Translations under genes and position numbers: made by a program
NCBI GenBank assembly: GCA_902571955.1
Contig: CACGDZ010000007.1
Span: 1 to 64,000 of the forward strand
Source of the DNA: an uncultured Pelagibacteraceae bacterium
GTDB lineage: Bacteria > Pseudomonadota > Alphaproteobacteria > Pelagibacterales > Pelagibacteraceae
Length of the DNA: 64,000 nt
Direction of reading: 5' to 3'
The notes under the pieces: generated by a model
Seen by the model: only the letters and a program-made list of their open reading frames with translations
What the model was told of the DNA's origin: nothing
Databases searched by the model: none
Shown: one piece after another, positions 25,120 through 28,773 of the stretch
How positions within the stretch are numbered: the stretch's first letter is position 1
How the letters are laid out: each line of letters starts with the position of its first letter

Positions 25120-26317
25120 TTGCTTTCTCTATTATAGGTAAATGTATCAGACCTGCAAAAATTGATAATGCGATAGATCCGTACCATGCATAATCAAAAT
25201 TTCCGTTTAATTCATAAAATACACCACCTAGATACGCTCCTAGGAAAGAACCAATTTGATGGCTTACAAAAACAATTCCATATAAAAGTCCAACATATTT
25301 TGTACCAAATATATGTGCAACAATCCCATTCGTTGGAGGAACTGTGGATAACCATAAAAAACCAAAAGTAACTCCAAAAACTACCGAGTTAAATATACTT
25401 GGCGGTAAGAAAATAAAATAAATTATAGAAACTCCTCTTAATAGATAAATAGCGCTTAAAATTTTTTTTTTACTATACCTTGTTGCTAAATAACCACTGG
25501 TAATCGTACCAGCCATATTAAATACACCAATCAAAGCTAAAACCATTGCAGGCGTCCAGTCAGGCAAACCTTTGTCTGCCATATAAGTAGGAATGTGTGT
25601 TGCTACTAAAGCAATATGCCAACCACAAACAAAAAAACCTAAAGTTAGATAAATAAAACTTTTGTTGGCAAATGCCTCTCTTAGAGCCTCTATTGCTGTT
25701 TGATTATTATCTTGATTAGCTCCTACAGGTATTTTTGGAGTACTAACAAACAAAGCTACCAACAATCCTAACCCTAAAAGAAGAGAAAAATATAAAAGTG
25801 TATTCTCCCAGCCTGTTTCAACTAAGGAATATCTTACAAGTAAAGGTGATACAAAATATCCAAATGAACCTGCACACGTAACAATTCCTGTTGCAATAGT
25901 TCTATTAGATGCTGGAAAATGTTTAGCTACTACCGATACTGGGATACCTATTGCAGTGGAACCTAAGCCAATTCCAATCATCACACCTATAGTTAACGTA
26001 AAATAACCTCCTGTATTATAGCCAGAATAAAAAAGCAAAACCCCAACTAAATAAAAAGCAAAGCCAATAAATATTGCAACCGCTCCTCCGTATTTATCAG
26101 TTAGTACACCAAACAACGGACTAAATACTCCCCAAAGTAATAGCTGCAATCCCATAACAAAACCAAAATGAGAAATGGAAATATCTAAATCTGTATTAAA
26201 GTCAAAATAAAATAATCCAAACGTCTGTCTTATTCCTAATGAAATTATTACAACTATAGAGGCAGCAATTAAAGTGATTAATGCTTTTTTGCCTATAGTA
26301 AAACTTTCTGTACTCAT
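25097..26317 (-). CDS. MFS transporter
   Basis: 12-TM; GVLTDKYGG; overlaps pabB and metC ORFs. Confidence 0.88.
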   Translation of the reverse strand: MSTESFTIGKKALITLIAASIVVIISLGIRQTFGLFYFDFNTDLDISISHFGFVMGLQLLLWGVFSPLFGVLTDKYGGAVAIFIGFAFYLVGVLLFYSGYNTGGYFTLTIGVMIGIGLGSTAIGIPVSVVAKHFPASNRTIATGIVTCAGSFGYFVSPLLVRYSLVETGWENTLLYFSLLLGLGLLVALFVSTPKIPVGANQDNNQTAIEALREAFANKSFIYLTLGFFVCGWHIALVATHIPTYMADKGLPDWTPAMVLALIGVFNMAGTITSGYLATRYSKKKILSAIYLLRGVSIIYFIFLPPSIFNSVVFGVTFGFLWLSTVPPTNGIVAHIFGTKYVGLLYGIVFVSHQIGSFLGAYLGGVFYELNGNFDYAWYGSIALSIFAGLIHLPIIEKAIERTQPA

Positions 26318-27492
26318 TTAATAAATTTTAATGCTTGTTTAATATCATTTATTATTTCTTTTGGATCTTCAAGCCCAATATGCATCCTTATTATATGTTC
26401 ATCTTTATTTATATGTGTAAATTGTCTCTTACCCAGTGCTTGGTGTGTTTGATAAAGTGCTAAACTTTCGAAACCTCCCCAACTAAATCCATACCCAAAA
26501 AGTTTTAAAGAATTAACAAATTTTAACACTGAGTTTTTATTTTTTGATTTTATTTTAAATCCTAATAAACCCGATGCTCCAGAATAATATTTTTTCCACA
26601 ATTTATAATTTTGATTTCCTTTTTTATATGGGTAGAAAACTTTAATAATTTTTTTTTGTTTTGACAAAAACTTTGAAACTTTTAGGGCATTTTCTTGATG
26701 TTTGTCTAATCTTACATCTAAAGTTCTAATTCCTCTAAGAATTAAATATGCATCATCTGGACCTAGTCTCAAACCAGATACCTTGCTCGTTTGTTCAACC
26801 AACTTAAAAACTCTTTTACTTATTGCTAAACTACCTCCCATTACATCTGAATGCCCAGAATAATATTTTGTTGCAGAAACAATTGACATATCAAAACCTA
26901 ATTTAATTGGTTTTAAAAAATAAGGTGTTCCCCAGGTGTTATCTATTGCTGTATAAATTTTATTTTTTTTTGCCAGTGCAACTATTTTAGATAAATCTTG
27001 AAATTCAAAAGTGTTACTTCCAGGATTTTCAACAAAAATAAGTTTTGTTTTTTTTGTAATTTTACTTTTAAGGTCGTTCAAATCATTTGGATTATAAAAT
27101 ATAGCCCTAATATTAAATTTTTTTAGATATGTTTCTGTTAATAGTCTTGAAGGAGAATAGACAGAGTCTGTAACAAGTATTTCATCATCTGGTTTAACAA
27201 CGCTTAATACTCCGAGGAATATTGCACCAAAACCAGTAGGTGTAAGATAAACTTTATAACATTCCTCAATTTTTTTTAAAATTTGTTGCAATGCATAAGT
27301 GGTAGATGTTCCCTGTCTACCATAATCAAAATTTCCACTAACTGGATCTTTTAAGTATTTATTCTGAGTTCTTTTAATATCCTGAATTGATTTAAAGATA
27401 ATAGTTGAGGCTCTAACTACAGGAGGATTAACTGACTGATTATGAAAATCTTTAGCAGTGTGTTTAAGGAAAGTCTTTAAAGAATTGCCCAT
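26314..27492 (-). CDS. metC: Cystathionine beta-lyase-like PLP enzyme
   Basis: SATKYYSGHSDVMGG PLP lysine motif; Cys/Met metabolism family. Confidence 0.88.
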   Translation of the reverse strand: MGNSLKTFLKHTAKDFHNQSVNPPVVRASTIIFKSIQDIKRTQNKYLKDPVSGNFDYGRQGTSTTYALQQILKKIEECYKVYLTPTGFGAIFLGVLSVVKPDDEILVTDSVYSPSRLLTETYLKKFNIRAIFYNPNDLNDLKSKITKKTKLIFVENPGSNTFEFQDLSKIVALAKKNKIYTAIDNTWGTPYFLKPIKLGFDMSIVSATKYYSGHSDVMGGSLAISKRVFKLVEQTSKVSGLRLGPDDAYLILRGIRTLDVRLDKHQENALKVSKFLSKQKKIIKVFYPYKKGNQNYKLWKKYYSGASGLLGFKIKSKNKNSVLKFVNSLKLFGYGFSWGGFESLALYQTHQALGKRQFTHINKDEHIIRMHIGLEDPKEIINDIKQALKFIK

Positions 27493-27563
27493 AATAAATT
27501 TGATATGTTATTAAGACAATGCTATATCCCACTAAAATGTCAATAAAATTAACATAGGACTAA

Positions 27564-27647
27564 ATGAGTTACCCAAAAAAACATAGAGGCCGAAGAAAAC
27601 AAGGGTCTAAAAAAAGAAGAGCTAAAAGAAAAAATAAGAAAAAATAA
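27564..27647 (+). CDS. 27-aa ultrabasic peptide
   Basis: ATG 27564..TAA 27647: MSYPKKHRGRRKQGSKKRRAKRKNKKK; AGGA upstream; sits between metC and mnmA; below ORF track cutoff. Confidence 0.55.
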   Translation: MSYPKKHRGRRKQGSKKRRAKRKNKKK

Positions 27648-27651
27648 TTCT

Positions 27652-28773
27652 TCAACTATTCTTTATCCATCCACCACCAAGCACTCTGTGACCAAACTGG
27701 TCTTTACGATAAAAAACACATGCCTGACCAGGTGAAATGCCGTCTTCAGGAATTGCTAAATTAACTTTAGCATTATTGTTATCTATAAGATCAACTTTTG
27801 CTTCTAGAAGACTTCCAGTAGATCTAACTTTAACAAATAAATTTTGATCTAAATCCTCTTTATTAGTTAATAAATTTATTTCCTTTAAAGAAATTGTTTT
27901 TTTTCCAAGTTTTTCTTTAGGTCCAACTATTATTTCATTTTTATCCGAATTTATCTTTAACACGTAAAGGGCTTCTTTATCTGAAACTTTAATTCCTTTT
28001 CTTTGACCAATTGTAAAATTAATAATTCCATCATGAACACCAATCACATCACCATCCAAATTTTTTATATTTCCTTTCTGAAAAGAGTCTGGTCTAAACT
28101 TTTCTATTACTGAAGCGTAATCTCCATTTGGAACAAAACATATATCTTGACTATCAGGTTTATCAGCAACGTTTAAATCTAAATTTTTTGCAATTTCTCT
28201 AGTTTTATCTTTTAACATTCCTCCTAATGGAAATCTTAAATAATCTAATTGTTCTCTAGTTGTATTAAATAAAAAATAACTTTGGTCTCTATTTTCATCT
28301 ATAGCTCTATACATGTTTGTAGTTTTGTTTTCTGTAATACTTTTTACATAATGACCAGTAACTAATGCATCAGCTTTGAGCTCTTTTGAGACTTCAAATA
28401 AATCTTTGAATTTAACAGTTTGATTGCACTGAACACATGGAATTGGAGTTTCTCCTTTTAAATAACTCTCAACAAAATTGTCTATAACACCTTGCTTAAA
28501 CTTATCTTGATAATATAAAATTTTATGTTCTATACCTAATTTATGTGCAACACGCTTAGCGTCCATTATATCTTGACCCGAACAACACTGTTTGGACGCT
28601 GCAACTTCTTTACCATCATCATAAAGTTTTAAAGTTATTCCAATTACATTATAACCTTCTTTTTTCATAATTCCTGCAACAGTGGAAGAGTCTACTCCAC
28701 CCGACATTGCAACAACTACGGTTGTATCTGAAGGTTTTTTATCTAAACCAATAGAATTTAAATCTTTATTCAT
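27652..28773 (-). CDS. mnmA: tRNA-specific 2-thiouridylase
   Basis: [43 protein letters not shown]. Confidence 0.95.

Follow-up and report, generated by a model that had tools for sequence, protein, structure and literature searches.

A strictly conserved 27-residue gene of SAR11 bacteria and its phage homologues, a candidate for a small ribosome-associated protein

Basic proteins of 28–33 aa that had been overlooked were previously found on bacterial ribosomes, e.g., bS22 of Borrelia, which had been missed by annotation (PMC10618245). The family to which it belongs, bS22/mS38 (AURKAIP1/COX24; PF08213, NF047430), has about 60% Lys+Arg and binds in the 16S h2/h27/h44/h45 pocket, while bTHX (TIGR04560) is a very basic protein of 27 aa that is not universal among bacteria. 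Phages and bacteria have in common the small, basic and widespread protein bS21 (PF01165, TIGR00030), of about 70 aa. Viral bS21 and bL12 become part of ribosomes (PMC6375957), and phage bS21 genes are typically close to the prohead protease and capsid genes and show late expression (PMC9723584). Phage internal, prohead core or protamine-like peptides are also small and basic. In this study, we report a family of small proteins which has traits in common with each of these systems.

The gene lies in a stretch of 64,000 nucleotides from an uncultured Pelagibacteraceae bacterium (hereafter, the window). As proposed in the initial annotation, the window sequence contains an ORF of 27 aa between metC and mnmA, with an AGGA on its 5' side. 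This AGGA is four bases from the ATG. The features of the locus are the following:

26314-27492, minus strand: metC, divergent from the 27-aa gene
27500-27505, plus strand: TTGATA, promoter-like −35 hexamer, kept in the upstream alignment
27523-27528, plus strand: TATATC with TG before it, promoter-like extended −10, 17 bases 3' of TTGATA
27538-27555, plus strand: conserved stretch (TCAATAAAATTA...) of the upstream alignment in the presumed 5' UTR, between the promoter-like element and the start codon
27556-27559, plus strand: AGGA, Shine-Dalgarno-like site; of the 20 relatives aligned, most have a purine-rich site here
27564-27647 (stop included), plus strand: small protein gene MSYPKKHRGRRKQGSKKRRAKRKNKKK, 27 aa, ATG start and TAA stop
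27652-28773, minus strand: mnmA, convergent with the 27-aa gene

Four bases separate the stop of the 27-aa gene from the end of mnmA. The encoded protein has a pI of about 12 and contains Lys or Arg at 16 of 27 positions (59%, or 63% with His); the basic composition first described was thus confirmed, at a proportion slightly lower than the two thirds then claimed for Lys/Arg. In the upstream alignment, the GACAATGCTATATCC block around the promoter-like extended −10 was nearly invariant. Given that a generic promoter scanner did not call the TTGATA-N17-TATATC element, its promoter role is putative. No Rfam family matched near the gene, including the conserved stretch at 27538-27555. In about half of 30 SAR11 loci, the 27-aa gene was directly followed by a gene for a Frag1-like membrane protein (e.g., L033:1336-2046), which other SAR11 genomes, that of the window included, lacked. 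Since this second gene comes and goes among SAR11, a tie between both genes was rejected.

A protein search in 101 related genomes revealed the 27-aa ORF once each in 49 of the 61 genomes of the same genus, always open, of the same length and 85–100% identical to the window protein; the 12 misses broadly fit incomplete assemblies. Disruption of the frame in close relatives, which would have spoken against the gene, was looked for and the frame was intact. In SAR11-type loci, 115 distinct DNA versions encoded just 10 proteins, and the stop followed codon 27 in all of them. The codon-level comparison suggested at the outset showed an excess of synonymous changes: these made up 84–89% of the single-base codon differences vs. 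about 15–17% expected, with a dN/dS-like ratio of about 0.02–0.04 that is approximate, because differences were counted pairwise and the expectation comes from a simple model of AT-rich mutation. The 34 loci obtained by protein or profile search gave 89 vs. 17% and a ratio of 0.024, and codons 13–27 alone, outside the patterns of the later DNA searches, gave 0.036. The 27-aa ORF is a genuine gene under strong purifying selection, and its conservation excludes a chance ORF, although an A-rich genome easily yields basic ORFs of this kind. Annotation appears to miss this strictly conserved, near-universal SAR11 gene because it is only 27 codons long.

With respect to its distribution, a profile search matched 85 of 147 genomes of the order, all of them in Pelagibacteraceae, the family of the window. 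The gene was single copy in nearly all sampled members of this family; nine of the members listed lacked it, some with nearly complete genomes. In Fonsibacter and other SAR11 lineages it still adjoins mnmA. No real match was found among the listed genomes of another family of the same order (f2): its weak matches, in G088 and G093, overlap a conserved coding gene and were judged to be due to chance. A second alphaproteobacterial order carried the gene in 71 of 80 genomes, including all 20 near-complete ones, and a third in six of six. The chromosomal sites in these orders were unrelated (a gap between MFS-type and msrB-like genes, near a LysR-type gene, and beside an rpoH-like gene, all named by eye). 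Within its lineage it is a single-copy core gene on which strong purifying selection acts, and the pattern in Pelagibacteraceae and in the second and third orders is that of a core gene retained while its neighbours change. Outside Alphaproteobacteria, members of 30–33 aa with good ribosome-binding sites were found in three Gemmatimonadota genomes out of the 198 belonging to the class of a Gemmatimonadales MAG (taxonomy of these MAGs as in their records). Wider sampling of Alphaproteobacteria and of their phylum turned up no other convincing carrier, and most other sampled Alphaproteobacteria were without the gene. Weak matches in G281, G561, G893, and G913 (E 0.003–0.007) were attributed to chance; a Streptomyces match (L125) sits inside another ORF and those in Clostridia (L048) were weak only. 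A mobile module for exact binding of nucleic acids is suggested by the fact that Gemmatimonadota and, as described below, unrelated phages have the same core.

The alignment of 41 distinct free-standing proteins showed that Y3, P4, K5, K6, H7, G9, R10, R11, K12, G14, S15, and R18 are invariant; part of positions 3–11 was fixed by the DNA search patterns, and the protein and profile searches, which lack that constraint, agree. The family consensus is MGYPKKHRGRRKxGSKxRR followed by a short, predicted basic helix. Removal of the initial Met is expected, since only G, S, A, or P occurs at position 2. An AlphaFold2 model of one phage member of 33 aa (mean pLDDT 80.6, pTM 0.38) predicted an extended arm, with a helix beginning at residue 15. 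The rigid identity of Lys and Arg, the invariance of Y, P, H, and G, and the free exchange of K and R at positions 21–23 point to a defined binding site and not to general charge neutralisation.

Neither the single sequence nor 17 members matched any entry in Pfam, NCBIfam, PHROGs, or PDB, in agreement with the initial view that no family could be claimed, and a literature search with the peptide string retrieved no paper. Judged from these comparisons, the protein represents a new, undescribed small protein family. The likeness to bTHX or mS38 proposed at first did not survive as a family relationship, the models being unmatched and the alignments no better than composition-matched shuffles. 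The bTHX models TIGR04560 and NF011339 gave no match up to E = 10, both being matched by Thermus bTHX as a control, and the scores were below those of shuffles (pairwise z −0.3 to −1.9; profile z −1.8). Likewise, the family did not match the bS22/mS38 models PF08213 and NF047430, and in 30 genomes of the order PF08213 gave nothing above the cut-off. It must be noted that this lack of a model match is not decisive for bS22, since NCBIfam missed a Bacteroidota-type bS22; the control with mycobacterial bS22 worked. The comparison with bS22 of known structure was also negative (pairwise p ≥ 0.07; profile z −0.5, p 0.62), as was that with eL41 (profile z 0.4, p 0.27). Weak pairwise scores with bL35 and bS21 were not accepted, the best p being 0.012 when six queries were compared with 12 comparators. 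Shuffled sequences and shuffled columns served as controls; the bS22 comparators were confirmed by PDB chains and, among the others, those of bTHX and bS21 by their family models. As the similarity does not go beyond shuffles, the family is assigned, on present evidence, to none of bTHX, bS22/mS38, or eL41. In addition to size, composition and omission from annotation, it resembles bS22/mS38 in its predicted arm and helix and, by eye, in a K-[IVM]-[AGS]-[ST]-[HK]-K arrangement, whereas the invariant GYPKKHRGRRK core is missing in bS22. By analogy, the 27-aa protein may work like bS22, although it cannot be filed there.

At least 37 predicted-viral contigs carry a family member. By means of back-translated DNA patterns, at least 26 viral contigs with the exact PKKHRGRRK and at least 11 more with HKGRR were obtained, and four kinds of context were distinguished. 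In the first, a small presumed structural gene is followed by the family gene and then by GroES, in contigs which also encode the major head protein and portal. The profile search of the whole records of the cultured pelagiphages HTVC027P and HTVC023P and of two related phages, chosen via GroES, found no copy. A tblastn search of phages with the peptide gave no match either, which may reflect masking of the query by the low-complexity filter. In the second, the family gene comes after a T7-endonuclease-I-like gene and, in the contigs that were read, before an HNH gene; no translation gene was seen within the DNA examined. In the third, it lies inside the tRNA/tmRNA arrays of L155 and L168 or between two tRNA genes in L163. 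The arrays (L155:4388-9660 and L168:638-10433) comprise 10–13 tRNA genes plus tmRNA with the tags AEPLKLAA and ADALPMAA. In the fourth, a GYPKKHKGRRK domain forms the C-terminus of head-cluster proteins of the T4-like phages L221 (L221:8206-9345), L227 (the equivalent protein), and L224 (at the start of the contig); the fusion proteins of L221 and L227 adjoin the prohead protease and that of L224 was placed in the cluster by its neighbours. In all three, the interval also contains bS21, which scored higher than the curated NCBIfam cut-off. A head-core protein of L221 is shared by two database phages, Microcystis phage Mel-JY01 and LR756508, which likewise encode bS21 in that cluster; in the latter, a 484-kb uncultured phage, this is an unannotated gene beside the scaffold gene (L250:7214-7453, LR756508.1). 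Apart from the second context, phage copies thus accompany translation genes or belong to late structural clusters, a pattern like that of bS21. The family differs from bS21 in its unrelated sequence and in that viral bS21 has been shown in ribosomes (PMC6375957) whereas the family is a candidate for such a role. Separately, a basic ORF of 43 aa (KHRGRRKLGRKKRRKRSAKWRNKKTGR) was observed in six other viral contigs (L211:3787-3870 and L212-L216) and is possibly convergent; this viral ORF (KHRGRRKLGRKKRR) was not counted, since it has KHRGRRK in common with the family whereas GYP and GS of the core are missing.

The invariant core, the single copy across orders and the phage homologues in the company of bS21 and tRNA/tmRNA genes favour, without proving it, the RNA- or ribosome-related role that had been suggested from composition. 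We consider it slightly more probable than its opposite that the 27-aa protein is a new small RNA-binding and probably (accessory) ribosome-associated protein. According to this proposal, it would dock into a specific rRNA pocket, with the invariant arm (residues 1–14) contacting folded RNA and the basic helix from Ser15 lying along RNA as in small proteins such as bS22, and the phage copies would supplement or re-tune host ribosomes for the same reason as phage bS21. A more specific version, which we advance tentatively as falling somewhat short of an even chance, is that SAR11 has a lineage-specific 27-residue ribosomal protein and that several unrelated phage groups encode copies of it, some together with bS21, re-tuning host ribosomes. 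With much lower probability, T4-like phages might even bring the head-fused copy along inside the virion, so that it would work immediately upon infection. In this regard, the absence from f2 and from most other Alphaproteobacteria indicates that it is not a general ribosomal protein. Several findings count against a ribosomal role: there is no homology to known ribosomal proteins beyond composition, a few nearly complete SAR11 genomes lack the gene, two of the phage context types show no translation gene in the vicinity, within the DNA examined, and the fusion to head-cluster proteins in three phages suits a role in the capsid.

The main rival explanation is a DNA-binding or DNA-condensing peptide, that is, a nucleoid protein in bacteria and a protamine-like or internal head protein neutralising packaged DNA in phages, which we regard as unlikely but deserving serious attention. 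It would account for the high Lys+Arg content, for the copies that, in one phage group, stand among head genes after a gene presumed to be structural, and for the C-terminal copy beside the prohead protease in T4-like phages, where the residue before GYPKKH is Glu and thus compatible with cleavage after Glu. Nevertheless, P3 of this presumed site is Lys or Val, vs. Leu or Ile in the cleavage site of T4 gp21. Moreover, the fixed Lys/Arg identity of the core and its invariant Y, P, H, G, G, and S are unlike charge-neutralising proteins, other phage copies sit in tRNA arrays, and no PHROGs match linked the family to phage internal or packaging proteins, from which it also differs in being a rigid, core single-copy gene of free-living bacteria. 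Phage bS21 genes occupy the head cluster too (PMC9723584), so such a site is expected of phage ribosomal proteins and is no proof of a capsid role by itself.

Binding to a different but likewise specific nucleic-acid machine, be it RNA polymerase, a small RNA, tmRNA, or tRNA, with regulation of transcription or RNA stability, seems to us rather improbable: the rigid, RNA-binding-like core and the tRNA and tmRNA genes near the copies of L155 and L168 would suit it, but no regulatory neighbour is common to all contexts and the co-location with bS21 points to the ribosome itself. Finally, the idea that there is no gene at all, the frame being either accidental in A-rich DNA or a conserved regulatory or RNA element mistaken for protein, for which the absence of database models could also be cited, can be dismissed almost completely, since variation is synonymous at third positions in this very frame, the same protein is encoded by genomes that differ widely in G+C content and by phages whose DNA differs, and there is no Rfam match.

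Few bacterial groups are as abundant or as well studied as SAR11, the dominant bacteria of the ocean, and yet a near-universal gene appears to have been overlooked in them. If its product is on the ribosome, SAR11 ribosomes would hold a component that is missing from current models and that is exploited by phages.
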